Source: Sipunculus nudus
Lineage: Eukaryota; Annelida; Sipuncula; Golfingiida; Sipunculidae
Reading direction: 5' to 3'
Length of the DNA: 64,000 nt
Assembly (NCBI GenBank): GCA_026874595.1
Contig: CM049317.1
Span: 21,648,882 to 21,712,881 of the forward strand
Shown here: positions 1 to 62,690 of the stretch, one piece after another
Position numbering within the stretch: the stretch's first letter is position 1
How the letters are laid out: every line of letters begins with the position of its first letter
Notes under the pieces: generated by a model
Database searches by the model: none
What the model was told of the DNA's origin: nothing
What the model saw: only the letters and a program-made list of their open reading frames with translations
Program-made: the position numbers and the translations under genes

Positions 1-1074
1 TGTGCAAAATGTGCAAAAATGGTTGCAGGTGGCCCCTCCAGTTTTGTGTATGATAAAGACCTATGTGAGATCTATACACATGCAAAATTTTGGCCTAATC
101 GTTCAAACGGTTCCCTAGATATGAGCTTGGATGTCTGCAGCATAAACTAGAATAAAGGTGGCGCCACCTGTCATAAAATCAAGAAAGCTATCCAGGATGT
201 ATAAAACTGCAAAATTTTAGGCAGATATGTCAAACCATTGCCAAGATGTGAGTGACTTTATTGCACGGCAGACAAACAGACAGACGCTGTGCAAAAATGG
301 TTGCAGGTGGTGCCACCAGTTTTGTGTATGATAAAGAGCTATGTTAGATCTATACACATGCAAAATTTTGGCCCGATCGGTCGAACGGTTCCCGAGATAT
401 GAGCTTGGATGTCTGCAGCGTGAACGTGAATGTAGGTGGTGCCACCTGTCATAAAATCAAGAAAGCTATCCAGGATGTATAAAACTGCAAAATTTTAGGC
501 AGATATGTCAAACCTCTGCCGAGATATGAGTGACATTATTGCACGGCAGACAAACAGACAGACGCTGTGCAAAAATGGTTGCAGGTGGCGCCACCAATTT
601 AGCGTTTGATAAAGAGCTATGTTAGATCTATAAACATGTAAAATTTTGGCCCGATAGGTCAAACGGTTCCCGATATATGAGCTTGGATGTCATCAGCATG
701 AATGAGAATGTAGGTGGCGCCACCTGTCATAAAATCAAGAAAGCTATCCAGGATGTATACGCATGCCGAATTTCAGGTGAATTAGTCAATTCACTGCAGA
801 GATATGAGTGATTTTAACCAAAGGCAGATGAACAGATGGACACTGTGCAAACATGGTTACAGGTGGCGCCACCATTTTTTGTGTATGTTATAGAGCTATC
901 CAAGGGCTACATTAGTATAAATTTTATTTCCTGATCAGTCAAACGGTTCCCAAATATGAGCTTGGAAAGCTGATAAAATCAAGTCCCAGAGGAGCTCTCT
1001 AAAAACGAACGCGGCAACGGCGGAGGAACCCGGTCAAAAACATAGTATCCACAAAACTTCGTTTTGGCGGGTAC
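1..1074 (-). mobile_element. Helentron-like element, family C, reverse, left-truncated by the window
   Basis: It ends at 1045-1074 with a hairpin (GTATCCAC..., ...GGCGGGTAC) that is the inverse of the 5' hairpin of the family C copy at 29336. The body is a tandem array of ~278-bp units, each with two copies of the palindrome GGTGGCGCCACC (or a near form) about 130-150 bp apart. It is inserted in a T-run next to the first palindrome of the alpha array that follows. The other end lies outside the window. Confidence 0.75.
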
Positions 1075-4000
1075 AAAAATACAGGTGGCTCCACCAGTCT
1101 GCAGAAACTAATAAAAACACTTACAAACATCAATATCCATGCAAAGAATCATGGTGATCTCCCACTTGGTTGTTCAGATACTTCAGCTTTTGTATCAAAT
1201 TGTCCATTATTCTGAGGGATACTTCGGAGTCCTATAGCTTGAAGGATATGGGTAACAGAGACCTAATTTTAAGTATCCACAGGCACTTTTCATGGGCCTT
1301 CTTGCATGACAAGAATGAAGATTATAGGTCCAGTTGTTGCGATTTGTACCCTGTTGACAGATAACCACATCTTTAAAGGTATCAAAAAATGAGAAAAAAA
1401 TCGTAAAAATTTGAAAAAAATAGAGGTGGCGCACCCAGTCTGCAGAAACTGATGGAACAGGTCATGATCAATATGTATGCCGAAAATCATGACCATCAGT
1501 GTTGTAGTTATTGAGATACTGCAGTTTTTGTATCAAATTTTCCATTATTCTGGGGGGTAATTTGGAGCCATACAGCTTAAAGAATATGGGTAACAGAGAC
1601 CTAATTTCAGGTTTCCATGGAGACTTTTCATGGGTCTCCCTGTGTGTCAAGAATGAAGATTCTAGGTCCAGTTTTAATGATTTGTGCCCTGTTAACAGAT
1701 GTTCATAACTTTAAAGGTCTCAAAAATAGAGAAAAAATTCGTAAAAAAACCCGAACAAATACAGGTGGTGCCATTAGTCTGCAGAAACTGATGAAACACT
1801 CCATGATCAATATCCATGAAAACAATTATGGTGATCTCTGCATTAGTTGTTCAGATACTTCAGCTTTTGTATTAAATTTTCCATTATTCTGAGCTGTACT
1901 TTGGAGTGCCATAGCTCAAAGGATATGGGTAACAGAGACCTAATTTCAGGTGTCCATGGAGACTTATCATGGGTCTCCCTGTGTGTCAACAATGAAGATT
2001 CTAGGTCCAGTCCTTACGATTTGTTGACAGATAACTACATCCTGAAAGGTCTCGAAAATAGAGGAAAAAAAATTGTGAAAATATGAAAAAATACAGGTGG
2101 CACCACCAGTCTGCAGGTACTGATCAAACACCTCTTGATCAATATGTATGCCAAAAATTATGACCATCAGTGTTGTAGTTATTGAGATGTTGCAGTTTGT
2201 TTTTATCAAATTTTCCATTATTCTGGGGGGTTATTGGGAGCCCCCCATAGCTCAAAGGATATGGATAACAGAGACCTTATTTCAGGTTTCCATGCAGACT
2301 TTTTATGGACCTCTCAGTGTGTCAAGAATGAAGATTCTAGGTCCAGTCTTTATGATTTGTGCCCTGTTAACAGCTGTTCACATTTTTAAATTCGTAAAAA
2401 AATCGAAAAATTCAGGTGGCGCCACCAGTCTGCAGGAAGTGATGGAACATCTCATGATCAATACGTATGCCAAAAATCATGACCATCAGTCAAGTAGTTA
2501 ATGAGATATTGAAGTTTTTGTATGAAATTTTTGACTTTTCTGGGGGGTACTTTGGGGCCCCATAGCTCGAAGGATATGGGTAAAAGAGATCTAATTTCTG
2601 GTTTCCACGGAGACTTTTAATAGGTTTCTCAGTGTGTCGAGAATGAAGATTCTAGGTCCAGCGGTTACGATTTGTGCCACGTTAACAGATGACAGCATCT
2701 TTAAACGTCTCAAAAATAGAGGAAAAAATTGTAAAAAAATCGAAAAATTCAGGTGGCGCCACCAGTCTGCAGGAAGTGATGGAACATCTCATGATCAATA
2801 CGTATGCCAAAAATCATGACCATCAGTCAAGTAGTTAATGAGATATTGAAGTTTTTGTATGAAATTTTTGACTTTTCTGGGGGGTACTTTGGGGCCCCAT
2901 AGCTCAAAGGATATGGGTAACAGAGATCTAATTTCTGGTTTCCACGGAGACTTTTAATAGGTTTCTCAGTGTGTCGAGAATGAAGATTCTAGGTCCAGCG
3001 GTTACGATTTGTGCCACGTTAACAGATGACAGCATCTTTAAACGTCTCAAAAATAGAGGAAAAAATTGTAAAAAAATCGAAAAAATACAGGTGGCGCCAC
3101 CAGTCTGCAGGAACTTATGGAACATCTCATGATCAATATGTATGCCAAAAATCATGACCATCAGTCAAGTAGTTAATGAGATATTGAAGTTTTTGTATGA
3201 AATTTTTGACTTTTCTGGGGGGTACTTTGGGGCCCCATAGCTCAAAGGATATGGGTAACAGAGATCTAATTTCTGGTTTCCACGGAGACTTTTAATAGGT
3301 TTCTCAGTGTGTCGAGAATGAAGATTCTAGGTCCAGCGGTTACGATTTGTGCCACGTTAACAGATGACAGCATCTTTAAACGTCTCAAAAATAGAGGAAA
3401 AAATTGTAAAAAAATCGAAAAAATACAGGTGGCGCCACCAGTCTGCAGGAACTTATGGAACATCTCATGATCAATATGTATGCCAAAAATCATGACCATC
3501 AGTGTTGTAGTTATTGAGATATTGAAGTTTTTGTGTGAAATTTTTTACTATTCTGGGGGGGTACTTTGGGGCCCCATAGCTGGAAGGATATGGGTAACAG
3601 AGACCTAATTTCTGGTTTCCAAGGAGATTTTTCATGGACCTCTCAGTGTATCAAGAATTAAGATTCTAGGTCTAGGCTTTACGATTTGTGCCTTGTTAAC
3701 AGATGTTCACATTTTTAAAGGTCTCAAAAATAGAGAAAAAAATTTGTAAAAAATCGAAAAATACAGGTGGCGCCACCAGTCTGCAGGGGTGATGGAACAT
3801 CTCATGATCAATATGTATGCCAAAAATCATGACCATCAGTCAAGTAGTTAATGAGATATTGAAGTTTTTGTATGAAATTTTTGACTTTTCTGGGGGGGTA
3901 CTTTGGGGCCCCATAGCTCGAAGGATATGGGTAACAGAGACCTAATTTCTGGTTTCCAAGGAGATTTTTCATGGACCTCTCAGAATCCTAAGTAACAAGG

Positions 4001-4099
4001 TTCTAGGTTCAGCGGTTACGATTTGTGCCTGGTTAACGGACGGACAGACGGACAAAGAGTGATCGCTATAGCTCAGATGACTTTCAGTCAGCTGAGCTA
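1075..4099 (-). mobile_element. Helentron-like element, family alpha, reverse, with ~338-bp tandem array
   Basis: About nine units of ~338 bp, each opening with (T)ACAGGTGGCGCCACCAGTC and including ATCATGACCATCAGT and CTAGGTCCAG. The right edge (4061-4098) is the inverse of the family's 5' end: a stem-loop of TAGCTCAG..TGACT and AGTCA.CTGAGCTA preceded by GACGGACAG-type sequence. The 3' end is left of the window, beyond the family C insert at 1-1074. ORFs in it recur with the units and show no protein likeness. Confidence 0.7.
2810..3485. repeat. Adjacent near-identical 338-bp array units
   Basis: Positions 2810-3147 and 3148-3485 appear identical, and the unit before them differs at few positions, while outer units differ at many. 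This is what local amplification or gene conversion inside the array would leave. Confirmation needs a self-alignment. Confidence 0.8.
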
Positions 4100-4979: not shown

Positions 4980-4990
4980 CACTTCCGGTG
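4980..4990 (+). promoter_or_regulatory. ETS-type motif in the LZTFL1 proximal promoter or 5' UTR
   Basis: CACTTCCGGTG contains the CTTCCGG core bound by ETS/GABP factors, frequent at TATA-less housekeeping and ciliary gene starts. It lies about 70 bp before the inferred start codon. No TATA box is evident just upstream. The transcription start is not determined. Confidence 0.4.
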
Positions 4991-5052
4991 AAGACAAACA
5001 TCGTGATTTGTTGCAACACGAAATTACTCGGTGTTTTTGACGCAAGTACAAA

Positions 5053-8000: not shown

Positions 8001-11000
8001 TAGTGTCATGTTTCATTTAATGGGGCTGTAAATGGTACACTGGTTAACAGATGCAATATGATAAAGACTGCAGAGTCAAATAATTCTTGTGGTATCATCA
8101 GAAGATCTTGAATTCTACATTATATTGATGATATTTGGTCAATTAATGGAGAGTGACATCTGTATTTAATCCTGGTGTCTCTGCATCATGTAAAATATGA
8201 AAGAAGAAATGTCCATCATTGGTCAGATATGCAAGCGGCACCTAACCAAACCAATGGATGGGATTTTTAGCTCAGCTGACTATAAGTCATCTGAGCTATA
8301 GTCGTGGTCCATTGTCCGTCGTCCGTCCGTCCGTCCGTCCGTAGATGTGGCACGTTTTGAAACCGTAAGACCTAGGAATCCAAAATTCGGCATAATGTTA
8401 GATGTCCCCAAGATCTCCTACCAAGCCGAAAACTGGGTCTTTTCGACTTCGTTCCTTAAGGAAATTAAGGAAAAACCTCAATTTTTTATTAAAAACCTAT
8501 TTTCACACTTCAGGACTGCCTAATATCAGAACCACTGATCTGTTTTTCCTCATATTTACCATAAATATTCCTCTATATAGTTCCTATGTACATTCAAGAA
8601 ATTATGTCTGTATTATATAATTTAAAAAAGTTATGGACCCAAACATAATGCATTTTGTAAAAAATCAGGAAAGATATTTGATCACTTAACACAAAACATG
8701 TTAAAGCTATGGACCTTTTTTCCAGTAATATAACTTTAATTAATCAAAATTAAATTGTATACCCAAAATAAGATGAAAATCTTTTAAATTTTTTAAAATA
8801 TTAATAAAAATAAAAAATTGGTACCTTAAATTTTGCCCAACTTTGACCATGGCACGTTTTTTTCCTGTGAGAACTGTGGATTTAATTTTCACAGCATGTT
8901 TTTGTTACCTTTTCAACTGTTAACACCAAAAATTTGAAACCAGTTGATCAAAAACTGTAGATTTTATTCAAGTTTTCAAGCACCATGTAACATATTGTTT
9001 ACATCAAGCTAGTGTTATGCAGTTTGCAAGAGCTCAGCTCCCCAGCTTCAGCTCTTAGTTCCTTAAATTCGGCATACAGCTAGATGTCTCCAAAATCCCC
9101 TACCATGCCAAGAATTTGGTCACTAGGGCTTAATACCTTCAAGATATTAATGAAAAACTTCATTTTTCCATTAAAAACCCATTGTTACACTTCAAGACTG
9201 CCTAATATCAAAACCACTGATCTGACTTTAATCATAAATAATATACATATTTTCATTCTCTATGCACATGCCAGAATGATGTCAGTATTGCGTAATTGTT
9301 TTAAGTTATGGGCCCAAACATAATGCACTTTGTAAAAAATCAAGAAATATATTTACTCCCTTAACAAGGGGATTGCTGAAGCTAGAGATTTTTTGTCAGG
9401 GATGTAACATTATTTAATCAAGATTCAATTGAATACCCAAAATTAGTTATGAATTTTTCAAATTTTATTAGTTATTAGTATAAATGTAAAATTAATAACT
9501 TAAATTTTGCCCAACTTTGACCATAGCACGTTTGTTTCCTGTGAGCACTGTTAATATAATTTTCATATCATGCACACATAAGGATTTCAGCTTTTAAGTT
9601 TAGAAAGCTGAAAGAAATTGGCCAAAAATTGTAGCTTTTATAAATGTTTTTATGAGACCCTGTCAGACTTTGGCTCTCTCCAGCCCCTCTTGAGTCACCT
9701 GTATGTTGACCTTGTTGAACTTTCAGCAAATTATGCATGCTTGAGGCGAGTCATACAGGGGAATCCAGGCAGCTTATGGCCAGCCACAGCTGATCCAGGT
9801 GTCCAACCCAACTCATCTAGTAGTTTTAACCAACTACATAACAATAAACAATAAATTAATAAATTTTTATTGGTTTTTAATAAAAAATTAAAGAAAAATA
9901 GAAAAGGAATTTGTTAGTTAAAATAGCAGGAAATTAACTTGCAGTTACTGATGATATAAGAATCTTGTATCGATGGATAGAATGTCACGTATTCCAAATA
10001 ACACCATGCAGTCACCTATGGTATTTTTCAGTTCAATTGTAATGATAAAGAAGTAAATCATATCATTCATTACTAATCATTAGGGATCATATGATGGAAA
10101 TTAATGATAGACAAAGATGCAGTTGATAATATTAATCTAGATTCCTACTGTGTCTAGTGTGTACATTGATGTGAAATTAGTCCAAAATGAATTTATTACA
10201 GTTATTTTTTAATATAAATAAAAGCCATAAAACCAGGTACTTATGATCATTATTTAAATGTGTGAATTTTGTATATTCTGGATTCTCAACATCATTGTTT
10301 GGTTAAAACTGAATAAATACCAGTCATGGTGCGAATACTTTGTAATTGTATTTAAATACAAATATGATTATGTACTCCATTATAAAATTTCTTGCATAAA
10401 GAATGGGAATTCAGGTAAAAATGAAAGTATATGAATACCAGTGCAAATACTTTCAAAATGTATTCATGAATGCATTCATGAATATATTCTTTAATATTAT
10501 TTTAATAATCATTTCAGTTATATTTCATTTAAAAAAATCATATGATTCTCTTATTATTTAAAAAAAAAATAATATTTGGGACAATATTTGTAATTTTTTT
10601 AAATTAATAGTTAAACCCTTATATTATATATTCTGCTTATAAGTTATATGGCCAAGTCAAAATCTGTGTGACAATAGCACTCCATTTGTTAATAAAATAA
10701 ATGAAATCAATCCTCTTCCCTGTCTCCAAAGGTACTATCAAAATCATACATAAGCTAAACAACAACAACTCATAATACAGCTTATATTTATTACCACACA
10801 AAACCAGCATGTGCCTCATTTCTAAATAATATTTTTTTATCATATATAACAGCTGAGCGTCGTGACCCATAGGTCCCTTGTTTAAAGGTTTTTTTAGTTT
10901 TAATTAATTCTATTTACACTTTTGAAAAAAAAGAAATTCGGTTGTCTTTTCAAGAAAAAAAATCAGTCTTCAATCTATTGAACTGGAATACTGCATACAT

Positions 11001-12785
11001 ACCTGATATATGAGTATATCATATTTTTGCCATATACGCAATAGTAATGATTCATGTCATTGTGTAGTTACAGCCCTGTTAATAAAAACTTTGATACATT
11101 ATTATACATAGTGGGAGAACAGTTCTTCATGTGGAAAGAGAGTAGTAACCTGAACCAGCTTCTCTGCAGTTCTTTGTTTTTCTCTTTCGAGTTGTACAGT
11201 TAATTTGAATAATTACATTGTTGATTTGAAATAAACATTACCATACATCATTTTAAGTGTGGAACTACAGTATATTACAGGTATAAATAGTCAGAAGATA
11301 TATTTATAAAGAAGCTTGTTAATAAGGGCCCCGCTTGACAAGCGGTGCCCTATAGTGATCACCATGTCAGTCTGTCTGTCCTTCCGTCAGTGACACTTTC
11401 TTTTCGCTTTTTGATAACTCAACAACAACATACTTCAGCTTTCCCAAATTCACAGGGATGATTGATACATACAAGGGCTCAAGACCTATTGATTTACAGA
11501 CCTGTCGGAATTCTAGTATGGCTGCCACAGCCTAGTTGCTGATTTTCTTTTTCGTGTGATAACTCAACAACATACTTCATCTTTCCCAAATTCACAGAGA
11601 TGATTGGTACCTATAAGGGCTCTATCTCTATCGAATTGAAGACCTGTCGGAATTCCAATATGGATGCCAGAGCACAGTCATTGATTTTCTTTCGCACCCA
11701 ATATCTCAACAAGAACATGCTTGATCTTACTCAGATTCACAGGGCTCATTGGTGACATATGGGGGATTCTGACCTATTGAAGACAGACTTGCTCAAAATC
11801 GAATATGGACAACACAGTACAATCAGTGATTTCAGTTGCACAAATTATTTCTTTTTTTAATATTATTTGAACAAGTAGGATTTTCCCTCATGTATATGGT
11901 TAAAAACCTAATTCTGTTTGTCATATTTCAACCTAAACTTTTCACCCATATGTAAACTAGTCCAGCACTACCAGAAATGCGGGGCCCTCTGAGGACCATT
12001 GTCTGACCACATCTAGTTGAATATTTATTTATTGGTTTATATAATATCAATGTTTCACCCATTTCTGATATCACCTATACAGCCTTTATCAGGCCAATGC
12101 ATAATATAACAACTTTGCCATGTCCTGATATCTAGACCTTTTGTTGTTTTTAAAATTGTTCTTTTTTATACTTTTTGGTCATTGCTCGTAACATTCATGA
12201 TTATTATAATATAAAAACATTTCAGTATCTGCTTGAGGAAGTTTTTCTGGATAGTGTTTGTAAGGTTAATATGCTGTTTATTTCTGTTCTCATTGTTACT
12301 CTTACATGCAGAGTTCTGCGCTCGGACTTAACGAACACCATCAAAGCAATGTGGTTGAATACATGCGTTTTGCCCGCTACCAGCGTGGCCAGAGACTGCG
12401 TGCTGTTGATGCTTGCTTCCGGGAGCTGAAGGATAGCAGGTATTAAAAAGATTAAATTAATTTATTGTACATTATTTTAGATTTTAGGGAGGTATATTGA
12501 ATTATATGTTAATTGATTGTTTACTGACCAGTCTTTTTGGTGGCAACGCTCAGCTTTAAACATCCTTGAAACATTTTTAATTGAATGGTTGTAAGGTTTT
12601 AACTTGAGATCCTGGTGTTACTTTTTTGTGCCCTTGTTTTACCTTAAGTTTAAAATTTTTTAAACCATGCTCACAAAAATAATAAACAGATGAAAACCTT
12701 AATTTACTTTTCAAGAAATGTTTTTGACCATTCTCCACTTATAAAAGAAACTCTGTTATTCTGTTACTGTTTTCTGTGATAATGC

Positions 12786-12842
<57 letters not shown>

Positions 12843-15800
12843 ACACATTATACATGTTATGGTTTTCTATTATAACAGGGTTCATATGTCCTTAAAAAGT
12901 CATGTTTTTTTAGTTTGATAAATCAGTACTTAAAAAGTCATAAAGTTTTTAAAAAATTCTCTATATTATGAAAAGGTCATAAATTTTCATTTACTTACTG
13001 TAGGCATCTAAAAATGTTTTGTATCAACTTTTATTATTAAAGATTTAACATACATGATACATGGTGTTGAATTGCTGGTGCAAAATCTGTTGTATGCTTC
13101 TAAATGATACATATAATTAAACTATCTGCAATATCTATTATTTTTAGTAATTTCCCATAGATTTTATGAAAATAAATGTTTTAAAACTCACCTTATTTAA
13201 ATGCCATATCCTGTACATAGCTTGTAAATGTGCGCACCAGTGCAACTTTACCTTATTGCTGATGGCAAAAAATATTATGACGGGACTTGAACACTTACAG
13301 ACCCGCCAGACACTTATATAGGTGTAAGTTTGCTGTTATTTTATGAAACAATAATTAAGATTTAAGAACATATCAGATTTCATGATTACTGGTATGTAGA
13401 TCTGGACTTGAAAATCCATAATATCTCAGTAGTAATCAGACTCTTCATGTGTGTGATAATAGGGAAGTTAAATGCCGACATAAGATTAGTTTTAAAGTGA
13501 AGGGTTCACAATCACAATATTAGTATCTTGTCACCGGTTGAAAGATGAATTATAACCTTAATCAAGATTTTTCTTTTTTTACTCCATATATCAAACTAAT
13601 GACATTACATTACTTGGTTAATAATTTTAAAAATAATTACATAAAAGACATTACATTAAATAAAAGTAATAAGTTAAAATTAACCAACCAAAATAATCTT
13701 TATTGAAAGTCATCTGAGCTATAGTGATGGGTCTTTGTCAGACATCCTGACATCCCAGCAGTTAGCAGGGCACAAATTGTAACCATTAATCCTAGAAAAT
13801 TCTAACTTGACATCCAGAGTGAGAATTCATTTTTATATGATGGGATGTATTATGGTATACCCACCATATGCCCGTTGATTAACTTTTAGTGTCCCGCAGT
13901 GACTTACCAGGGTTTTCATGGATTTTCATGAAACTCATCGTAACTACTAACCAGTAGATTATCCCGCCCCTGTTTGATTATGGGCAAAATCTACACGTAT
14001 TTAATAAGGTTAAAGGTCACTAGGCTACTTTGTGGTGTTGCTGTGATATACTAGATATACTTTAAATGATATTATTTAATATTGAAATTTAATTTCTTAA
14101 TATATTTTCAATATAAAAGTTTAAATGTCATTATACCAGACTTAGGTGAATTAATATATGTACAAGTTAGACACTCCTATTAGATAATTAGATGTGTAGA
14201 CATGTTCAGATGTGTAAAAGTTTTTGTACAGACTGGTTGAGGACACATTTACAATTGATGAGGTGACAGACATGCTGGACGGGCTGCTGGCTGTGGTTAG
14301 AGGGGACGTTGAGCTGGAGCTGATCAACACGTCACATACCAATGTCCTGATGCTGAGGCAGCTCTTCCAGCAGGCTGAGAAATGGCACCTTAAGCTGCAG
14401 GCAGACATATCAGAACTAGAGAACAGGTAAGAAAAAAATTATGGACTGGCCTCTGTGTTCTAGGGGTGGAGCACATATCTAATGAGTGTGAACCTCTGTT
14501 TAGGAGCAACAAGATTTTTCACAGTTGAGTCCCCTCTCAGGGTGAGCTCTGCAGGCTTAATGGGAATGCTGTACCCTACAGTAGTGTTTCCCCTCATAAA
14601 CAAGTGTGCCTTTTAGTGGTACCGATGTGTTTTGGACCTTGCAGTGGGTATGATAACACACTGAGAAAATGAGCTTATCAAGTTGTTTTTTGGGCCAAGG
14701 TAACTCCTAAATCATAACACAATCTTTCCTGTAACCATTGAAATTGTTTTAAGGGAAAATAGGTTAAGGAAAGCAGACTCTTGTATTTTTTGATGAAGTG
14801 CAGATAAAATGAAGTTAAAGCTTTCATTGTCTTTGTAATTAATAAACCCTACAGGAAGTTCAATCAAGCTAGATATGTTGAATACTGTTAAAATTTCTTG
14901 TTTTATTTAATTTTCATGCAGAGAGTTGCTGGAAGCGATCAAAGACTTTGAAGAACAAGAGTTTGCAGGGGCAAAGCGTGACACTGATTTTTCAGCTTTT
15001 AAATCATCTAAACTTGAACCATTGAATGAGGGAGGAGGTGCCGCTCTGTTACACATGGTTAGTTTTATTTTCATCTGTACAGTTAGCTTCCTCATCAAAG
15101 CAATGAATGACACAAGACAAAAAGATACCCTTGTTACAAATAAAACCAGAACTACGGTGGCAGACAACTGTCTGAGAAACATAACACCTAAAATCATAAA
15201 TGAGACTGACCAAATTATCATTGACAGAATTTTCACACACAGTGTGTCAGTGGATTAAAATTCTTAACAATAGTATCCTGACATTTAAAAAAACGATATG
15301 TTGACTTTAAATATAAATTTATGAATGCTTTATTTTTATGTCAAATAAAATATATATCTCTTTTCTCTTTATGCTAAATTTGGAACCTATTAATCAGGTT
15401 GTGATCAAGATACTAATTAAATTGAACTAATTTATTTTACATGGATTGTATTATAAATATAATAACTAATGCTTGGCACTTGCTGTTGCAAGAAGGCAAG
15501 AAAGTTGAAGAAACTTTGTTTTCCTGAATTTGGAAGATAATAAGTTGGCTCAAGAAAATTGAGTCTATTGTAAAATGATATGACTTGCAAACAGTGTCAT
15601 CTTTCCACACATACTTTATTTATAAGAATTGGACACAAACATTTGAGTGGTAACAAAATCTGCTGTTTCCCTTGGTGACCCTAGTTCGGTTCCCAGCTTG
15701 GCATGAGAGTGGGGAGATGAAGTTGGAGTGGCCTGTGTAAGGTCAATGGTTTTCTATGGGTATTTCTTTTTCCTTTATTTCTAGAGAATACCAAATACCA

Positions 15801-18800: not shown

Positions 18801-21800
18801 AAGGCGACTGATGATTTACAGTAATATAGGTGACGTGATTGGCTGCACAGAACAGTTATGCTCATGATTATTCTGTATGCTATTAAGGTCATGTAAAGTT
18901 AATGGTGAGGTCAATTGCAATATTTGTAATCCAGATGGTTGAATTTTGCAGGAAAAATGTAAAAAAATGCAATTCTCATTGGAGAATTTGATCCACATTA
19001 GGTATAGCAACCACTGGACCTGGTTATAATATGCATATGTATGGCTTTTGAATGCAGCCTGATCTGATGGGTTTTGTCATCGCAAATCACAGTAGTGCTT
19101 CACTGTCATCCTGATATATATTTCACATGAATTTATACTGCACTCTGAATACCATGTTCCCCTGTTACAGTAATATAACCCAGTAACCTATGTAAAATCG
19201 ATGTACCTTTAAGCATTTATTTAGCCATACATATATAAATAATACTTATTAAATCTAAAAAAATTGGTAGTATTTGCTAAACTTTCTGTATCTTATATAA
19301 TTTATGTTTGGTTGAATGCAAAGTAATTAATGTATTATGATGTACTCCCTGTTTTACAGTGTACAAATTAATAATTTCCAGGCAATAGACAGTCAGCGAG
19401 CTCAAGGTCGCTTACGGCAGGACCTTGATAGTCGAGAACAGGAACTTAGAGGATACAGAGGCAGAAAGGTAAGAAGACATGTAATCATCAAAAATTTCAT
19501 ATGATTTACTTTTCATTAAATAAATATATAAAATTACATTTATATGAAGCTTTAGCCACAATTATCTGTGGTACAATAAAAAATCTAGAAAACTCATCCT
19601 TTGAGATTTAAGTGAGTGTATACACTAAAATATGTCATGCAGACTCATAAACTAATAATAAAATAAAACACACTTGACAGGGATTTCATAGGGGATCTCA
19701 TGAAAGCTGAACTTGTATTGTGCCATTCTTTTATAAGCATAATTTCCCGGAAAATTTCCACACAATCCTAGAACTTGCCTTCTTTTCAATTTTCCTCTCC
19801 AAACTGTTCACTTGAGTAGGCTCTAACTAGATGATACAGCCCAGCAATAATGCTTTTTGCCATAAATACCCACCTAAAAATTCCTTATAATTATATTGAT
19901 ATTTTAATGGAAAGATTCTACTCTTTGATTTGTTCATTGTAGCCAGATGGATCTGCTGAGGAACTGGAAGGGCTGAGACAACAGATGTCTGACTTGAAAA
20001 CTAACCTGGACAAGGTAAGTCTTAATATTGTCTGCACTTACAAGAGGATGTATGTATATAAAGTAGGTGGTGCCACCTACATTTTCATATATAAATATAT
20101 AATGAACATTCAGGAATTATAGATTATTTGAAATTATAGATTATTTTCAAAGGAAGTTATTAAATAATGCATTTGGTCCAAGGTTCTCTCCAGCATAGTC
20201 TTTCAAGGCTTTGATTTTAAGTTCAGCTGGCTGAAAGTCATCTGAGCTATAGCAATCACTCTTTGTCCATCACCCGGCTGTCTGGCCATCTGGTCTTCCC
20301 TTAAAGGGGCCCAATCACCTACATGAACTTAAAAAAACTAATGGTAATCCTGTGGAGCTTATATAAAAATAGGCCAAAAAGTGGATATCACCACACATAG
20401 GCTGCTTATTTTGTTTATATCAAGGTGTTTATAATATGTGGGGGCCTACCAAAATAATCAAAACAAATTCAACAAGGGCATCTTGCAGCAAGTAAGTAAG
20501 AGCTTTGCAAATGGCATCTATAACAAGTGACCTACCTATGCATATAAGCAACCTACCACCTTAGGTTTCATGTTTTTCCAGTTTTTCAACATTGCTGTGT
20601 TTATAAATATGTTGTAGATAAACAAGTTCATACATCCTTCACAAAGCTTATATGAACTTTTCAAAACCAAAATTACACTTAGATTATTAATATATACACA
20701 GAGGAAGCCAGAAACTACATAAATTCTGTTTCATAAGGTTGGTGAATGGGTACCTTTAACAGGGCATAAATCTTAACAGTTTACCGTAAATCTTGTTTTT
20801 ATGGCCGCACGTCTATTTATAGCCGCACCCTGAGTTTGCAACGTCTCTTAAAGGAGCTCCCACTGAGGTCCAAATACCCAAAACCCCCCTTAAAGGCCGC
20901 ACCCCGACTCCGTCTCTGGCCTGATGGGTAAGATAAATAGTTGCACGTAGCAAAATAAATCACGACATAGCTGCTTTAATGAAGACTAGAATAAAAAAGT
21001 ATTAATTACAGAGGTTAAATATGTGGGCAGATTACGTATATTAAACATATTTAACGCTCGAGATAGGGACAATATAGATATTTTGTCCCTAACGACTTTT
21101 GCACATGGATTGGCAGGCATTTATCAGAAAAAGAAAGATTCCCCGAACGATCGTTTCGTTTGAATGGTGGCTACGCAAAACGATTCTTGTATGCATCAAC
21201 ACGCTTCTTTGCATGTAAAAGACCATAGTATGAACACTGAATTGAGGTTTATATGTACATTTATTGAAGCAAAAAGCCTGAATACAATCCACTATTACGC
21301 ACCATCACGCAGTAGCGTTCAGGGGGCGACATGATGGCTAAGACTGCTGAGACTGTCAGATTTTCAACCTGCGGGAACTTAATTACGGCTCGTGGTATAC
21401 ATATAAAAACTTATGTGTAGAACCTTGACATGTATATCTTTCGTGCGATATATAACTTGTTATAAAAAATCTTGGTAATTGTCACCAAATAATACGTTTA
21501 AAACACCCCAACTGTAACACAGCGGCCCGTTGGGCATGGTCAAGCAACATTGAAGTAAATGCCTACTTTAAACTCATTTGCAGCGTTATTTAGCAACAAT
21601 TATTTGTTTAAAAAAGTAAAATGAATATAAAGCTGACATCGTAAAGAGTCGCATAATGGCTGACGATCGTTTTAAAATCAAGTTTGAGTGCCGCCATGTG
21701 CTGAAACGCCCTGGTGTTCTGCTAAGAATATTTTGATCGGCTGTACGCGGTGGGTGGTAAACAGAACAGCCACCTATTTCGTCCCAGTGTGCCTTGCGCG

Positions 21801-24800
21801 AACGCTACCTTGACAAGATGGCTCCCCACACGCGTACACGGACACTTTCTTGAGGAAAAAAAACTTGCTTACCTCGACCGGCCATTTAATTTCACTTCAA
21901 AATCACTCGTTTTCACGCGTCATGTTTGCTATACGTGCGTATTTCGACAAGGTAACTTCAGTTATTTTAATATTTAGTTGAGTTGACCAGCGATGTTTTC
22001 AAACGCATCAGCAAATTGTGACATGGAGTGATGTCAACGAACGATGTGACGATGATTATACCGAAGTTACCGGTATGAAAATGATTCGAATCTTCCGAAT
22101 AATTCAGAAATGGAATTTTCATCATAGATTAAAAAAAATATTACTTTTAGAATTAAAATATACAGTGACTTTAAATGGATCAGCAGAATGTTTCTATACA
22201 AAATATATTGAAAAATCAGTAGCAAACAAGAATACGGCACCGCATGTAAAATCTGTATATTCACCAAATTCCATCGGCTGTACCGACATGTTCTACCATT
22301 TATATCTACAAGCGGGTTTCCCCCTCTAACACTATTTCCATTCATACAATATATTCGTGATTGTATAAACAAAGATTAATCAGAAGTAAATGACCGGGCT
22401 ATACGCATTCAAGGATGAAGGTTTTCCAGAAACATGACATGGGGGCGAGAAGATGGGCTATTCAATATTGAGGTACATGTATCAGACATTATAAAAAATG
22501 TCAGTAAGTACCTGCTAAATTTGAACTTTTATAAAGATTTCATAGTGTTCTAAATTACATATTTTGATTTTCTGAATTATTTTTATGAACAACATAGATA
22601 CCAGGGCAATTCAGCTCCGTCAAAGGTATGACCGGTAATACCGATTTTTTCCAACAGACGTCACCACTAGTCCTCACCATGAATAATCTCATTCATTTTA
22701 ATCTCGTAATAAGTGTTGTTATTGTTCAATGTTTATTGTTATTGTTTAATTGATTGCATATAATTGTTATATTTTATATGAACATTTAGACTATACAATT
22801 TTATACAATAAATTTGTGACTACTAAGAGTATTTCCTCTGTGGTGTGCTTGATCTCCTATTATCGCCCAAAGGAGCGCCATGTCCGGGAGAGAGTTCTTC
22901 TCACAGTTCATTTCTGATAAACCATTATTTATGGCCGCATCCCGAGTTCAGAAAAAAAGTCGAGATTTTCGATTTTGAGTTTGTTTTTACGGCCGCGGAG
23001 ATAAAAACAGGATTTACGGTAACCTAGAATAGTCTGACTTGATATCAAAGGAGTACGCTCTTTACACAGCGCTTTACCTATAGGGCCACTACCTATATCG
23101 TAAGGCGCTGTTTGTTATGACCTCGTATCCTGAATTGCCACACCAGAGGGGAGCACTGTATTTTTGTCCAATCAGATGAGACCTTGTGCTGGAAGACAAA
23201 GCCAAGCGAGGAATAAACGGAGCCAATCATGTTTATTTCGTTTTGAGTGACAGCTCATCGCCCCGCGTAACTGTCTGAACAGGCCACAGGCTCAGAGAGA
23301 ATTGCCCCTGACGTGGTTTGCTTAGGGCCTTGGGCACATAGGATGCTCGGCCGGTGAGATGTAATTCAAACGAAACGTAACAACAAAGGCTGCGTGCACA
23401 CCTCGCTGGCTTGTTTCAGTTCAGACAACAGATACATGGCTACGCTAACAGAGTCATAATGTCATAATCCAATCGGTCGATGATGCGAGAATGCAGAGGG
23501 ACAATTTAAATTCGACCGGAAACTCATCAAGCGGCGCTTGAAGCGCACCAATGGGCAGAGCCAGGATGCCTGTGGAGTGTTTGTTTATTGGCATCTGATT
23601 GGCTGCTTGTCACATCATACGCACGTTTATTTCAGCGGACAACGAACCGCCATCTGGTGTCTAAATATATCATAAACGGTCAAAGCTTGCAGCGTGAAGA
23701 TCAGTTGCTTCTTTAGAAGCGCAAGATTTCGGCTGCCTCGGGAGCGTATCAAAGGAGGTCCATGAAAAATCTCCTTGGAACCTGAAATTAGGTCATAGTG
23801 ACCTATATTCTGCAAGATATGCGAAAGAACATGATTTGAGCACCTTATAGGACAGATTTGCATATTTGGTTACAGTTGGACTTAGAAACTTTTAATTTGA
23901 TCAAGATCCAGGGAGTTTCCTGTACAAATTTCTTGGAAACCTGAAATGATGTCACTATAACTAACATATATTCTGCAAGCTTTGTGAAAGAACATGATTT
24001 TAACACTATTAGTCACATGGGCACAAATGGAAGCAGCTGGATGTAGAATAAGGTCACTGTAACCTAAATCTAAGGTCTATTGGCAAATGCATGATTTTGA
24101 ACACTCTGGGAGTCATGATACCCATTGTTCAAGGTTCCCTGAATTCAGCTGAGCATCATGGCCAATGGGCCACTTGTTCTGTATGTCATCCTTATTATAT
24201 AAATAAGCAGAAGATCCTCAAATATCACATATGGTTATCTGTCATCTTGTTAATATGGAATGAATGGTACAGATGACCTCATGATCTGCACTTATTTGGC
24301 TAAACAAATTAAAAAAGTATTTTTTTTAAGCATTATCATATATTGATGTCAAACCCAGGCTATCAGAATGAGGCGTCGCACACTGTTATATGCTGTATGA
24401 TATAACATCCATTTTCCTGCAGGTTCATTTCTTAACAAGAAATAGCAATTTTTGTATATGACCTAGTCAGCAGCAAATTATATCACCACCAGTTGAATAT
24501 CCAAAAAATTGTGAAGCAGCCCATTTACTAGATATAGGATGTGTTATGGTATACCCACAGTCCGTCTGTTCATATGTCTGTCAGATAACTTCACAGTTAC
24601 TGTCACAGTTATTACTTACCAGTTCTCGGATAGATTTTCATGAAACTCACTTTAACTGCTTACCAATAGATTATCTAACCTGAGTTCAGTTATAGGCAAA
24701 ATCCACTCGTATTTGGAGGTCACCAGGTACTGTCTTTCACCAAAGATAATCCGTAATCTACTGAAGATAATCCACTTCCTCATTTAGAGCCATAATTTTG

Positions 24801-45355: not shown

Positions 45356-46271
45356 CAAGTGGCCCGTTGGCCATGACGCTCAGCTAAATTTGACATACAT
45401 GTGACACATACAATTATTATTGATGTTATGATCTGGTGACAAATATTTGAAAGGAAATCAAGCTTTTTGCCCACCAGTCTTCAGGAACTGAAGAAAAACA
45501 CTATGATCAATATGCATTGAAAGTATTGGCAATCAATGCATTAGTTATTCAGACACTGGAGATTTCGTATCAAATTCTTAATTATTCCGAGGGGTATTTA
45601 CTAACCCCGTAGTTCACAGATATTGTTTACCATGACCTAATTTCAGGGTTCCAAGGACATTTACCCAAGACTTTCCTGAAGGTCATGGTAGAAGATTCTA
45701 GGCCAAGAGGATACAATTTGTTTCCCCTCTAACTCCCTGGGTACTCAAAATCATGTTTTTGGCCCGTGGTTTGCAAAATATAGGTCACCATGACCTAATT
45801 TTAGTTTTCCAAGGAGATTTGCTTAGGACCTACTCGCATTTACTGTTAGATGTTCCTAGGCCTAGCGGTTGCGCTTTGTGCCCTGGTTACAATCAGACTG
45901 CTTCATTTGAAGGTCTCAAAAGGTGAGAAAAATGTGTAAACGTTAGAAAAATATAAAGGTGGCCCCACCCGTCTTCAGAAACACTATGATCAATATGCAT
46001 TGAAAGAATCATGGCAATCAACCCATTAGGTATCCAGATACCTGAGCTTTTGTATAATTTTAATTATTCTTGGGGGGATACTTATGAGTCCCATAGTTAG
46101 AGGATCTAGGTCGCAGTGACCTAATGTCAGGTATCCAAGGAGATGTTTGTTTCTCCATGGGTGTTAAGTTAGAAGTTTCTAGCTCCAGCTGTTACGATTT
46201 GTGCCCTGTTAACGGACAGATGACGGACAGAGTGATCGTTATAATTCAGATGACTTTCAGTTATCTAAGCT
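45356..46271 (-). mobile_element. Helentron-like alpha element, reverse, 916 bp
   Basis: The left edge is the inverse of the 3' end (CAAGTGGCCCGTTGGCCATG, ACGCTCAGCT). The right edge is the inverse of the 5' end (ACGGACAGA, GTGATCG, TCAGATGACTTTCAGTTATC, TAAGCT). About two diverged units lie between, with CACCCGTCTTCAG and CTAATTTCAGG. A short, old copy bounded at both ends. Confidence 0.75.
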
Positions 46272-54216: not shown

Positions 54217-55385
54217 GTATCCGCCATAACAGAGTTTTGCGGATACTGTATGTTTTCAGTTGCTCGCCGCCTCCGCGGTTTCCGGAGAACTCCACCGTAA
54301 CCACTGGGCAGAATTTTTTAAAATTTGAAATTTTGATCGGGTCACATGTGAACTGCTTCGACCTCATTTTTGGTTGACCTCTGACCTTTCCTCTCTGCCC
54401 AGCATTCAATTTGTGCGTCTGTTTCCACACATAAACGCACATATCTCGGAAAACTGTTTGACCGATCAGACTAAAAATTTTGCACAAATGTAGCCTTTGG
54501 ATAGCTTTATAACCTAAAATAAAATGGTGGCGCCACCTGCAACCATTTTTGCACAGCGTCAATCTGTTGTTCTGCTTTCGGATAAAATCACTCATATCTC
54601 TGCATTGATTGGACTTATCCACCTGAAATTTTGCGTGTGTATACATCCTGGAGAGCTTTCTTGATTTTATGACAGGTGACGCCACCTATATTCACGTTCA
54701 GGCTGCAGACATACAGGCTTATATCTCAGGACTGGTTTGACATATCCTTTTGACATTTTGCATGTGTATACACACAGCTCTTAATCATACGCAAAACTGG
54801 TGGCGCCACCTCCAACCATTTTTGCACAGCGTCCGTCTATTTGTCTGCCGTGGGACAAAATCACTCATATCTCGGCAGTGGTTTAACTAATCTGCCTAAA
54901 AATTTGCGTGTATATACATCTTTGATAGCTTTCTCGATTTTGTGGCAGGTGGTGCCACCTACTTTCACGTTCAGGCTGCAGACAGCAAGGCTTATATCTC
55001 AGGACTGGTTTGACGTATCCTCCTGAAATTTTGCATGGTATAGATCTCACATAGCTCTTTATTACACCCCAAACTGGTGGCGCTACCTCCAACCATTTTT
55101 GTACGGCGTCCATCTGTTTGTCTGCCGTTGGATAAAATCACTCATATCTCGGCAGTGGTTTGACTTATCTGCCTAAAATTTTGCAATTGTATACAACGTG
55201 GATTATTTTCTGGATTTTGTGGCAGTTGGCGCCACCTACATACACATTCGGCTGCAGACGTCCATGCTAATTTGCAGCACACCTCTCTCTATTTCCTCTT
55301 GCCACTCAATCCATGCCTCACTTCTCCCGTCCCACTCTGGTTTCGGTGGATACACGCAGTCGCTTGTCGACTACCCATATTTTAG
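54217..55385 (+). mobile_element. Helentron-like element, family C, 1,169 bp, inside the LINE
   Basis: It starts GTATCCGCCATAACAGAG and its hairpin partner TTTTGCGGATAC, and ends (C>T)TAG at 55382-55385 after the hairpin GCAGTCGCTTGTCGACTAC. Four palindromic GGTGGCGCCACC sites or variants lie in ~280-bp units. Left flank ..ATT and right flank TTT.. match the T-T insertion seen for the 29336 copy. Confidence 0.75.
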
Positions 55386-55571: not shown

Positions 55572-57881
55572 AGCTCAGCTGACTATAAGTCATCTGAGCT
55601 ATAGTCGTGGACCATTGTCCGTCGTCCGTCCGTCTGTCCGTCTGTCCGTCCGTCCGTCCGTCCAGATGTCCGTCCGTAAGACTGGAACGTTTCGACACCA
55701 TTCGACCTAAGAATCTGAAATTCGGCATACAGTTAGATGTCGCCAAAATCTCCTACCATGCCGAAAATTGGGTCAATAGGACTTCGTTCCTTCGAGATAT
55801 TAAGGAAAAACCTCAATTTTTATAAAAAATCTATTTTCACACTTCAGGACTGCCTATTATCAAAACCACTCATCAGGATTTCTTCATATTTACCATAAAT
55901 ATTCCTATATATTACTATGTACATGTCAGAAATTAAGTCAGTATTATTTAATTTTAAAAAGTCATGGGCCCAAACATAATGGACTTTGTAAAATAATCAG
56001 GAAAGATATTTGGTCACTTAAGACCAAAAGTGTTAAAGGTAGGGACTTTTTTTCAGTAACACAACTTTAATTAATCAAAATTTAATTTTATACAAAAAAT
56101 TAGATCAAAATCTTTTAAATGTTTTTAAATATTGGCAAAAATATAAAATTGGTACCTTAAATTTTGCCCAACTTTGGCCACGGCACGTTTTTTTCCTGTA
56201 AGTACTGTGGATTTAATTTTCACAGCATGTACACATAAGGATTTAATCTGTTTAAATCTGAAATTTGAAAATAAAGGCTGCAAAATTAGGCTAGTTATTG
56301 AATTTTTTTGGAGGCTCTTGTTGTATCCCCTTACATTGTCAAGTAGTCCACTTTGGTGACTGTAGGTCATTCAGTGCATATCTCTATGCTCCCCAGGCTG
56401 TTGGCATAATGTTAGATGTCCCAAAGATCTCCTACCAAGCTGAAAACTGGGTCTTTGCGACTTTGTTCCTTTGAGAAATAAAGGAAAAACCTCAATTTTT
56501 TTATTAAAAACATATTTTCACACTTCAGGACTGCCTAATATCAAAACCACTTATCTGTTTTTCCTCATATTTACCATGAATATTCCTCTATATAGTTCCT
56601 ATATATATGCCAGAAATAAGGTCTGTATTATATAATCAAAAAAAGTTATGGGCTCAAACATAATGCATTTTGTAAAAAATCAGAAAAGATATTTGATCGC
56701 TTAACACAAAACATGTTAAAGCTAAGGACTGTTTCCAGTAATATAACTTTAATTAATCAAAATTAAATTGTATACCCAAAATTTGATCAAAATCTTTTAA
56801 AATTTTTATAATATTAGCAAAAATAAAAATTGGTACCTTAAATTTTGCCCAACTTTGGCCACGGCACGTTTTTTTCCTGTAAGTACTGTTGATTTAATTT
56901 TCACAGCATGTGCACATAAAGATTTAATCTGTTAAAATCTGAAATTTGAAAAAAAAGGCTGCAAAATTAGGTTAGTAATTGAATTTATTTTGGAGGCTCT
57001 TGTTGTATTCACTTACATTGTCAAGCAGTCCACTTTGGTGACTGTAGGTCATGCAGTGCAGCTCACTCCACTGAGTTGAGCTTGATCAGGCTGTCTGCAG
57101 TTAATACCATACCACAGGGAGCCTTTTTCTCGGGCAAATCCCGCTCACTCCCCCCCCCCCCCGCCCCACCCCCTTCCTGTTGACAGACCTGTACTATGAA
57201 CTAGATGAATCTTAAAATTAACATTTTTTTCAGCAACGAGCAGTAACAACGGAGACCCCTCCCCCCACCCACCCCTTCAATACACAGGACTAATAAACAA
57301 GATGAATCTTATAATTTTAATGTTAAATAAATTCTTTTTGATGAGACTTGGACAATTTTAATTGTTTTAAAGAAAAAAAATCAGGAATTTAATCATAATA
57401 TTCAAATGTGATAAAATATTAGGATCTAATGTAAGTGCTAACTGACAAGATTTAAGAAGATATAAATACTTTGTAGCATTTCATTCATATCGCTTAAAGT
57501 TGGCGGGACCTAGGTGTGAATAACACTGTTAACTTAGTATTAAAATTAGGAATATTGGTCAAACTTTGTTGGATTAATTTTTAACTCATATGGCCATATA
57601 TTTAACTTTTGAAAACTTAATTACCTTCACACATTATTTGTTTGTGAAATGTTACTTTTATATTACACTTACCGTAGGCCTATTTCTTCCCTTGGTGCAT
57701 CACTAAATGGTTTAGCTCACGTCCATTATTCTATAATTTACAGAGCTTCATTTTAGCGGGGCAATTTTCTCATAGCTTTTCTAATGATAATATACATGAA
57801 AAACCAAAAGAAATAAAAATATTTTGCAGTTACTAATATTTTCCAAAATTCAGCTGAGCGATGTGACCCATGGGTCCCTTG
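55572..57881 (+). mobile_element. Helentron-like alpha element, 2.3 kb, inside the LINE
   Basis: 5' AGCTCAGCTGACTATAAGTC, ATCTGAGCTATAG, a long GTCCGTCC run, two ~670-bp internal units (from about 55690 and 56395), a C-rich stretch (57150-57175), and 3' CAGCTGAGCGATGTGACCCA, TGGGTCCCTTG. It splits the LINE frame between FH and SE codons, so the LINE must have been in place first. Confidence 0.75.
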
Positions 57882-59950: not shown

Positions 59951-60760
59951 CAGGCTAAATTTGAAGTACATGCGTGATTGGCTTAGCCATTGCTACGTCA
60001 GCGGTGTCACCATCTGAAGACTCCAGTTGTAGACATATTGACCCATTAAGAAGCGCGTCCTCGGTTGCTATGCAAACCCTGTCGGACCTTACGACGGGGG
60101 CTTCTTGCCTGCCTATCTCAAATATTAAGTGAATAATGAAAATTTAAGGAAATGACCCAGAAAAGTAACAAATTTAACCGAAATCTACACTAATAGCAAT
60201 TCATGCGCCTGTGGCTCGATTAAACTTTCTTAGGGACTCGGACTTGGACTCGTGGGTCCTTGACTGGGACTTGTACTCGGACTCGGAGGTAAGGACTCGA
60301 GAAATAAGGTCGAATTCATTTCAGGTCCCACGTATACTGTATAATAGTCACATACTATATAATGACTTACCGTTCCGTTATATACATGTGCAAACTACTA
60401 ACAGAATATTACAAAATAATAACACTGTATATACCAAGCTTTGCATCGTGAACTATATGTAATTTAACCATTATGGTAAAAGCATGTTTAAACTAACTTT
60501 GAAATGGAAATGATAATATGAACTTAACAGTTTAAACTTCTTTGTAAGAATATTTGTATTGGACTCATTGTCTTGGAGTTGAGTAACTAATGACTCGGAC
60601 TCCAAGAAGGCGGACTTGGGCTCGAAAATCAACCACTCGGACTTGGACTCAAGTGGCCTGGACTCGGATGTATATATATGTGGGTGTGTGTTTGTGATTA
60701 TTATATTCATATCATTAACTTGTTAAATATTAAAAGTTTTAACGTTATTATTCTCTATTT
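59951..60760. repeat. Region with imperfect 'GGACTCG' repeats, otherwise unassigned
   Basis: 60232-60300 repeats GGACTTGGACTCG-type motifs (GGACTCGGA, TGGACTCGTGGG, GGACTTGTACTCGG), and 60590-60670 repeats them in the same sense (ATGACTCGGACTCC, GCTCGAAAATC, GGACTTGGACTC). The frames at 60211 (plus) and 60471 (minus) derive from these and look non-coding. A (TA)(TG) run lies near 60670. Confidence 0.45.
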
Positions 60761-61190
60761 ATAGGAGTAACTTAATCAGTTTTATTATTATTGACTCTCT
60801 TCCTGTCTCTGCGTCTTCCACATCCTCGGCATGCGGAACCCTTTAAGCGTGTTGAGAGGTTTCACATGTACTGGCACACTGCGCAAACTTGGACTCACAA
60901 GAGTACAACTCGTGTGCGATTCCTAGCTGCATACACATACGTAACGCATACCTAATGCTGCTATCACGCACACCATACCTATAGATCTATATTAAAGTGA
61001 ATGTACCTCCTGGTGATTGAACAGCAGATTTAAAGGTTACAACCCGATCATTTGCCGTTGACTCAGCTTACATCCTACAGAGACAGTATGCAAAACTTTC
61101 TAAAAAATTAAGGCGGATTTCATTGTTATTTTTGAATATACAATTATCAATAGTATGCATGTGTTGTATTAAAATTAACTATTTAAAAAT
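60761..61190 (-). repeat. Inverted fragment related to unit E
   Basis: CGATCATTTGCCG, GACTCAGCTTAC, GAGACAGTATGCAAAACTTT inversely match E (TTTGCATACTGTC, GCAAATGATCAGG), and GGCATGCGGAACC also occurs in E in inverse. A similar fragment lies at 62790-63300. Confidence 0.5.
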
Positions 61191-61244
61191 TCAACTTGTT
61201 TCCAAAAATATAAAATTAAATAATTTTTGCCCATATATATCAAA

Positions 61245-62690
61245 TAAGTGACCCATGGGTCATGACGCTCAGCTTCCAAGCATGACCTTCGATATCATAG
61301 ACTGAGATTCATAACTTCGATTCAAATTTATGAAGAACTTTTTTGTCAATTTTGTTGAAACTTTCTGCAATGACAGAAATATATATCACATATGTCTGGT
61401 TAAAACACAGTGACTTGATGGTCTGAGGCCAAATGTAGGGTTGTGTAGGTAACAGGAACTAATCCCATAGCTTGCTTAATACTTGTCAGTCTCAAAAGGA
61501 ACACCGCACAGGCCAAATATAAGATCTACATATATAGCAAAAAATCAAAGAAATCCATGCAAGAATTATTGAGAAACGGGTGCTTTTTTTGTTAATGTTA
61601 TTCAGTACAAAAAAAATAATATTCAGTACAAACAAATTGTACTGAACTTTCATAAATGATGGTCATATTTTTAAAGAAATCTTTGACCCAATCCTTTACA
61701 ATATTACATTTAATAAATACGTCCCATGGCATTCACCTTAACAGTTCTTGAGATAATATGTTCAAAAGGAATTTAAAGATGGCTATCTGGTGGCCATATT
61801 GGATTTCTGACAGGTCTGAAATCTGTCAACGAACATCCTCTAAAAGGGACCAAACATTAAAAAAATCACAGAAACTGCACTGACAAAAGGATTTCTAAGG
61901 TGGCTACCTGGCAGGCATAATGGATTTCTGACAAGTCTGACATTTGATATCACATATCCTCCAATAAGAGACAAACTGGTGGCAGCTGCTCCAAAGAATG
62001 TTACAGTTATGAATGTCCAAAACAATTCAAAAGGCATGATAAGGCTGGAGAGCTCTCATAAAAGATTTATGGACATGCAAATGTAAAAAAAGTGTTAGTC
62101 AAATATTTTTAAAGTATCACCTTGCTTTTTAATGAGATCAGCAGTGTAGGTAAACTTGCAAAACCTACAAAAAATAAATGCAGAAAGCATCACTCAGAGT
62201 CTTGTAAAACAAATAAGGCCATCCTAAATCAAGGTACAGACCCACAAATTATCAGAACAAACACTTGCTGAGTATATCTGATGATTTGTATTAAAAATTT
62301 GATATCTAGGAAACTAAGTGTATTGCTATGATTATAACATAAAATAAAATTCAAAATGTTCCCATCATCTCATAAACAGTAGCTAAACATTAATACAATA
62401 CTCTGATAGTCTACCTCAGGCAACAGTGTTTTTGTTATGCACTAATGACGTTTTATCATTCAGTGGGCTGATACAAAGGGAGTCATATATCACAAGTGTC
62501 GCTCACAATTACAGCCATTCAGTGAGATGTACCAGTTGGAGTGCAATGGTATATACAAGAAAAATAGAGACGGAGATGGTTTATAAAGTTTTTTTTATTG
62601 TGAACATCCCTGACCTATAACCTTGGCCATTGTCAACATATCAGTTGGATTATTTCTAGGGTGATGATTCACTACTATAACCACTTAAAC
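61245..62690 (-). mobile_element. Alpha element related to B, reverse, without the family C insert
   Basis: The left edge AAGTGACCCATGGGTCATGA, CGCTCAGCT is the inverse 3' end. The body is the inverse of 31060-31652 followed by 28450-29335. At 61845-61865 the sequence runs straight from one to the other (CCAAACATTAAAAAAATCAC, AGAAACTGCACTGAC), so this copy shows the site before insertion of the 29336-31056 element. The 5' end of alpha is missing on the right. Confidence 0.8.

Follow-up and report, generated by a model that had tools for sequence, protein, structure and literature searches.

HINEs were defined in a study of mites, mosquitoes and flies (PMC4067079), where HINE/DINE-1 elements and Helentrons have subterminal inverted repeats (subTIRs) near both ends and a 3' palindrome, are inserted at TT, and have a partner encoding Rep, helicase and endonuclease. 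The same plan was described in 2020 for 11 elements of the Pacific oyster (Cg_HINE; PMC7492417), several of them unrelated in sequence and including a GTCC-type microsatellite and a satellite-like core; its authors could relate none of 10 autonomous elements to these HINEs. Such elements are present in bivalve genomes (PMC7992393, PMC11136912, PMC10294476); in oysters, Helitron-type elements make up about 9–13% of the genome, and in two oyster species over half of the satellite fraction consists of their core repeats (PMC11136912). Here, we describe three sets of repeats, named alpha, beta and C, in a stretch of 64,000 nucleotides from the sipunculid annelid Sipunculus nudus (assembly GCA_026874595.1, contig CM049317.1, positions 21,648,882 to 21,712,881 of the forward strand; “the window”), which sits in contig C12 of the 1.43 Gb of genome searched.

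We consider it highly probable that alpha, beta and C are three sets built on the published Helentron/HINE end plan, with alpha and C inserting into T runs without duplication, and that alpha is likely moved by Rep-bearing Helentrons with the same 3' tip. Membership in this group, proposed in an earlier note on the window, is supported by exact ends, by duplication-free empty sites in T runs for alpha and C, and by genomic Helentrons with Rep, PIF1 and endonuclease domains, one lineage of which has the alpha 3' tip. That three lineages on one plan would be a surprise is not supported, given that the plan is published for oyster (PMC7492417) and for mites and flies (PMC4067079); from the oyster work, one would expect to find different tip sequences next to each other. 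The design is real and already known, and new here is the likely parent of alpha, the case for which rests on the 3' end.

Alpha extends from 5' AGCTCAGCTG to 3' CAGCTGAGCGTCATGACCCATGGGTCACTTG; in its 5' hairpin, CTGAGCT follows 15 nt after AGCTCAG, and a GTCC/GTCTGTCC run comes next. The beta element begins with GGGCCCCGC, with a hairpin close by and then GTCTGTCC, and its 3' part reads GCGGGGCCCTCTGAGG...CATCTAG with GCGGGGCCC before CATCTAG. The C element begins with GTATCCGCC, the partner of which is GCGGATAC, and its 3' part reads GGCGGATAC..GTAGTCGCTTGTCGACTAC..TTCTAG with a stem of up to 7 bp ahead of TTCTAG. The simple-repeat run foreseen after the hairpin of alpha and beta is, thus, present in both, while in C the hairpin is followed by a CCG run and not by a GTCC run. 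A 5' hairpin, likewise foreseen, is found in all three sets, but the exact hairpin word is missing from two of the five alpha copies tested, those beginning at 27496 and 20220. Canonical Helitrons have 5' TC and 3' CTRR and are inserted between A and T (PMC4067079); the sets described here start 5' with AG, GG and GT, and alpha and C are flanked by T on both sides. At the 3' end, CTAG, as seen in beta and C, would agree with CTRR, and CTTG, as seen in alpha, would not.

The inverted 5' word and its distance to the end were measured on eight copies (five of alpha, one of beta, and the C copies at 29336 and 54217). The distance from its start to the 3' end is 31–33 nt for alpha (five copies), 38 nt for beta and 41 nt for C, the value given beforehand being roughly 30–40 bp for all three. 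The stems of the 3' palindrome measure 4–7 in the five alpha copies, 5 and 7 in the two C copies, and only 4 in beta. As a control, 5000 random head/tail draws from the window were made, and matches at least as long were counted: the word match was equalled 2, 37, 8, 122 and 2 times for the alpha copies, 11 times for beta, 7 times for C at 29336, and 517 times for the decayed C at 54217. Because of the latter value, decayed copies are weak evidence by themselves, and both C at 54217 and alpha at 20220 are too decayed to convince alone. For boundary alignments, flank-distinct copies from the window and from 28 loci of contig C1 (L001–L028) were used. Conservation of alpha stops after CACTTG, with TT next in 97–100% of 34 copies, and the 3' ends of C (n = 9) carry CTAG in eight and TAG in all nine, followed by TT; the alpha 5' boundary profile (41 rows), which takes in reverse hits of the hairpin, is less clean. 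Taken together, tips, boundary alignments and random draws confirm the end design as it had been observed.

Alpha is represented in the window by eight or more copies or ends, C by three copies and beta by one; together with one remnant, these are the following:
26793..34239, plus strand: alpha with 338-bp core repeats, inside a repeat resembling miniature inverted-repeat transposable elements (MITE-like); 5' and 3' tips with 0 mismatches.
27496..31652, plus strand: alpha with a core of 146-bp repeats, lying within one 338-bp unit of the preceding alpha; 3' tip with 1 mismatch.
29336..31056, plus strand: C with 280-bp core repeats, nested in alpha 27496-31652; both ends with 0 mismatches.
8269..10880, plus strand: alpha with core repeats of about 680 bp; 5' tip with 0 and 3' tip with 3 mismatches, and repeat spacing.
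20220..24176, plus strand: older alpha; 5' tip with 3 and 3' tip with 4 mismatches.
55572..57881, plus strand: alpha with core repeats of about 680 bp; 5' tip with 0 and 3' tip with 4 mismatches, and repeat spacing.
45356..46271, minus strand: alpha; about 270 bp and the terminal 97 bp are common to it and the 3' region of a Helentron on contig C17.
1075..4098, minus strand: alpha with 338-bp core, its 3' part cut by a C copy; 5' tip with 1 mismatch at 4098, tandem repeat at 1075-4037.
1..1074, minus strand: C with its 3' end beyond the window, inserted following the T run in one of the 338-bp units of alpha; 5' tip with 4 mismatches.
54217..55385, plus strand: C; 5' tip with 0 and 3' tip with 3 mismatches.
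11326..12016, plus strand: beta with 142-bp core repeats, the sole copy found in the window.
61245..61275, minus strand: 3' end of a further alpha copy, with 2 mismatches, 5' tip not identified.
13708..13740, plus strand: remnant with the alpha 5' hairpin and the start of the simple repeat; 1 mismatch to the half-hairpin probe.

The alpha at 26793 encloses the one at 27496, whose 5' tip is intact over its first 13 bases and whose hairpin is decayed. The 3' part of the enclosing copy is tandemly duplicated (about 1438 bp, window 31500-34420), the duplication running across the 3' ends of both nested copies; over a stretch of 300 bp, its units show 100% identity, and the duplication is, hence, very recent or an assembly duplicate. 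Among 47 of the 204 open reading frames of the window scanned against Pfam, there was a single match, Leu_zip (PF15294, E 2.3e-9), probably an exon of a host gene, and no Rep.

Insertion was examined by joining the flanks of nine elements under ten end definitions (the alpha at 26793 counts twice because its tandem duplication gives two possible 3' ends) and comparing them with the window and a set of genome loci. Uninterrupted sites were found for three of the nine elements, or four of the ten definitions; the six other definitions gave none in the same sequence set. For alpha at 26793, the targets lie in the window at 43267-43162, 18235-18136 and 53286-53198, which are copies of the MITE-like repeat 70–83% alike over 96–110 columns; alpha at 27496 has 44 spanning matches in sibling repeat units; and C at 29336 has an uninterrupted sibling at 61933-61797 (86% over 140 columns). 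The nesting order is, from outside inwards, MITE-like repeat, alpha, alpha, C. What distinguishes a filled from an empty site is the element itself and the number of Ts; therefore, no target is duplicated. Alpha and C insert inside T runs with T-T flanks. The absence of target duplications claimed beforehand, thus, holds for two alpha copies and one C copy, for which the ends are thereby proved, while beta gave no empty site in the sequence compared, and its left flank is AATAA rather than a T. Insertion of C between T and T is borne out by the T-run empty site and the TT flank, and neither boundary alignments nor empty sites place true ends elsewhere.

Genome-wide, the alpha 10-mer occurs at 25,717 + 25,668 places (140/156 for the reversed control), a count which does not equal the number of elements because both ends are included; a C 30-mer with up to 2 mismatches occurs at 8,893 places (control, 0) and a beta 20-mer with up to 2 mismatches at 2,562 (control, 3).

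Autonomous Helentrons are present in the same genome. A PF14214 (Rep) profile search, in which 150 of 195 candidates were scored, yielded at least 143 matches, and eight listed ones lie in open frames of 1,882–2,426 amino acids (aa). One Helentron, present in near-identical copies on C7 and C11, carries DUF6570, OTU and PF14214 in locus L031, and PIF1 and Exo_endo_phos in L034; in another (L032), DUF6570, OTU, PIF1 and Exo_endo_phos were found by Pfam and PF14214 by profile search. The autonomous set of Rep, PIF1-type helicase and AP-type endonuclease is, thus, present in L032 and in L031 with L034.

The element linking alpha to this group is the Helentron at C17:35630192, with an open frame of 2342 aa. 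On its 3' side, TWSDHKALF is followed by a stop, about 1.0 kb and CAGCTGAGCATCATGACCCATGGGTCACTTG-TTTTT, which has one mismatch to the alpha 3' tip; TWSDH is, we assume, the last motif of its endonuclease. A search with the 522 bp ending at this tip (40 of 967 candidates scored, 42 rows) gave, among the matches listed, seven places with 94–100% identity over positions 1–521/522. At five of them (C17, C1, C5, C9, C10), the tip lies 4700–4757 bp downstream of a same-strand Rep match, and the chance of a random place lying so near a listed Rep is about 2.5e-4 by hand calculation. Of the other 35 rows among the matches listed, 24 span only the last 87–153 bp to the tip, as expected of alpha HINEs when judged by extent and not by letters, and 11 span other parts. 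The alpha at 46271-45356 aligns with the C17 3' region over about 270 bp (score 126 versus at most 56 in 200 shuffles), its last 97 bp at 74%, and upstream of the C17 gene there are units with GTCC/GTCTGTCC runs, two clear and one weaker. An element encoding Rep, helicase and endonuclease with the same ends had been called for; what was found is the alpha 3' end on five Rep-bearing copies and, among the few Helentrons examined, none for beta or C. On this sequence evidence, the parent of alpha is likely the Rep-bearing lineage, copies of which would move alpha.

Several observations weigh against this parentage. For C8:69024421 and C17:37211172, which belong to the seven full-length matches, no Rep is listed, and among the five Rep-bearing copies only that on C17 has a frame above 2,000 aa, the others having 571–1124 aa; the full domain set was seen in other Helentrons and not in C17 itself. 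Comparison with the C17 3' region gave no match for the alpha-338 consensus, which 41 of 200 shuffles equalled, none for C, beta or the 146-bp core, and no clear one for the 680-bp core, equalled by 13 of 200. No alpha 5' tip is contained in the C17 upstream sequence examined, which stops short of the 5' tip of the element, and a guessed 5' pattern matched two places, neither near the five Rep-bearing copies. Only one of three long-frame Helentrons examined had the tip, C13:66180677 and C13:9109249 being without it within 2.3 kb, and no alpha, beta or C ends occur in the sequence examined of the C11/C7 Helentron. Finally, the comparison of the copies, made with the 522-bp query, covers sequence up to the tip.

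The strongest alternative, which we nevertheless regard as unlikely, is that an alpha HINE inserted into the 3' region of a Helentron and was then copied along with it. Nested insertions are common (C lies inside alpha and inside the C17 5' region, beta beside a Helentron), and only one alpha end is seen at C17. However, the interval from the C17 stop to the 3' tip contains no alpha 5' tip, even with up to about a third of its bases mismatched, and the colinearity of alpha 46271-45356 with this interval over about 270 bp is as expected of the Helentron's own tail. The C copy on the C17 5' side occupies positions 866–1722 of the piece examined, read 5' to 3'; if this stretch belongs to the element, its length is at least 11.9 kb.

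For beta and C, no Rep-bearing parent was found among the few Helentrons examined; both would have Helentrons of their own. A beta tip 3.8 kb upstream of a Rep on C1 was rejected as a parent's end, since it belongs to a complete short beta beside that Helentron. Part of the C17 tail, but not its tip, is matched at C5:68167583-68167766, some 3.2 kb past the same-strand Rep at C5:68163947; this is perhaps a diverged sister Helentron. The C11/C7 Helentron exceeds 16 kb (C11:50375001-50391000; L031, L039 and L040 on C7) and has tandem arrays beside its gene. Its two copies are 98.3–99.7% identical in the parts compared, from which a recent move appears likely; likeness reaches both ends of the 16 kb examined, so the ends lie outside, and a search for inverted words in it gave nothing convincing.

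That dispersed satellite arrays were spread by segmental duplication instead of transposition is very improbable, although many same-direction duplications occur in the pieces examined of the first Mb of C1: precise ends stand beside differing flanks, empty sites are precise, and both orientations occur among the 92 C copies listed for C1 beyond 1.1 Mb, 49 being plus and 43 minus. Duplication seems, from sequence comparison, to explain part of the alpha strand block in this first Mb. The first 100 listed alpha 10-mer places on C1 (C1:96439-2841097, 0.10-2.84 Mb) are 67 minus and 3 plus, then 30 plus, the all-plus stretch lying at 1.23-2.84 Mb; this corresponds to 8 runs versus 45 expected. In 20 pieces of C1 0.70-1.01 Mb, all probe matches are minus (17 pieces with matches), and these pieces match one another in one direction, with a summed match length of 5.17 Mb in the same versus 383 bases in the opposite direction, much of it from one satellite pair. 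Two loci (C1:780001-790000 and 800001-810000; L013, L014) are a long tandem satellite with a register of about 64 bp, 85–91% alike over 10 kb. The 92 C places, between 1.1 and 30.5 Mb, show no strand clustering (46 runs versus 46.8 expected). Insertion following replication direction, giving Mb-scale orientation domains, was dropped as a general rule, C being unclustered and the C1 pieces duplicated in the same direction. Least probable of all is that the three families are cut-and-paste or terminal-inverted-repeat elements with ordinary subterminal repeats as inverted words: short as these words are, the ends are asymmetric, three empty sites lack target duplications, Rep-bearing copies have the same 3' end, and no DDE-encoding partner with target duplications came to light, a separate search for one not having been made.

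Between the tips, the cores are mostly distinct. Under alpha tips, no fewer than three types of core are found, with repeats of 338 bp, about 680 bp and 146 bp, and for most core pairs likeness is not above that of 60 shuffles per pair. Two pairs score higher: one 680-bp core paired with the 338-bp core (53, the best shuffle reaching 46), and the 146-bp core, taken on its reverse strand, paired with beta (41, the best shuffle reaching 35). The earlier note had seen no homology among the three sequences, which fails for the cores of alpha-338 and C. These have the 17-base string ACTGGTGGCGCCACCTG in common, to the left of which 56 columns are colinear (2 of 1000 shuffles as good, versus 76, 758 and 994 of 1000 in three other alpha–C core comparisons); besides the palindrome described below, they probably share a colinear block. 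The 280-bp C unit is a dimer of two related halves. The 12-bp palindrome GGTGGCGCCACC occurs once in the alpha-338 unit consensus, twice in that of C, and also at 20066 and 36822, its outer bases being better conserved than the central CG; with up to 2 mismatches, it has 42 matches in the window and 0 for the reversed control. When 12-bp windows were ranked by conservation (35 of 65 and 32 of 60 hits kept, short and near-identical ones removed), the top one of 269 in C units overlapped the first palindrome; the palindrome itself came 6th and its second copy 25th, and among the 327 of alpha units it came 34th. The form CAGGTGGCGCCACC resembles the CTCF core. A reading as CTCF site was dropped and is not claimed, the likeness being weak because, by hand estimate, each strand should contain AGRKGGCRS about once in 16 kb; a literature search for AGGTGGCGC with CTCF gave nothing on the subject by title, and GGTGGCGCCACC appeared only in work on a bacterial chitinase.

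Compared with known systems, the elements are closest to Cg_HINE, which has a 5' subTIR with inverted partner, a GTCC/GTCY-type microsatellite, a satellite-like core, a 3' subTIR with palindrome, and T-rich insertion without target duplication; some of its families share tips but not cores, others nothing, and the variety of alpha cores under shared tips resembles oyster group 2 (PMC7492417). This likeness is one of description, and the oyster elements, as described there, have no linked autonomous partner, whereas alpha shares its 3' end with Rep-bearing copies. The oyster elements Pearl/CvA, CvE and CvG also have short core-repeat arrays between conserved ends, again alike by description (PMC7492417, PMC11136912). 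In mite HINEs, the subTIR lies 38–60 nt from the 3' end, versus 31–33 nt for the alpha word, and the satellite-like cores found here are unlike the mite, mosquito and fly elements (PMC4067079). Titles and abstracts searched held no later-identified HINE parent; alpha, beta or C may already be named in supplements or in Repbase.

As to mechanism, transposition would begin with a nick made by the Rep (HUH) protein of the Helentron at the junction of T and 5' tip. Its helicase would then peel off one strand, with refilling of the donor, and the signal to stop would come from the inverted word and the palindrome at the 3' end; a T run would receive the freed single strand. Copies without genes would serve as substrates because they carry the same tips, and the stretch between the tips would then be free to expand as tandem repeats. 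Tentatively, and with slightly less than even confidence, we propose that the 3' untranslated tail of a young Helentron lineage gave rise to alpha and grew in tandem into satellite-like arrays at tens of thousands of sites, beta and C being run by sister Helentrons with the same plan and different tips. If true, this genome offers the end-matched parent so far missing for the satellite-carrying HINEs of molluscs. With a parent of which near-identical copies exist, one could test how copies without genes originate, how their cores become satellites, and which letters of the tips are read by Rep.

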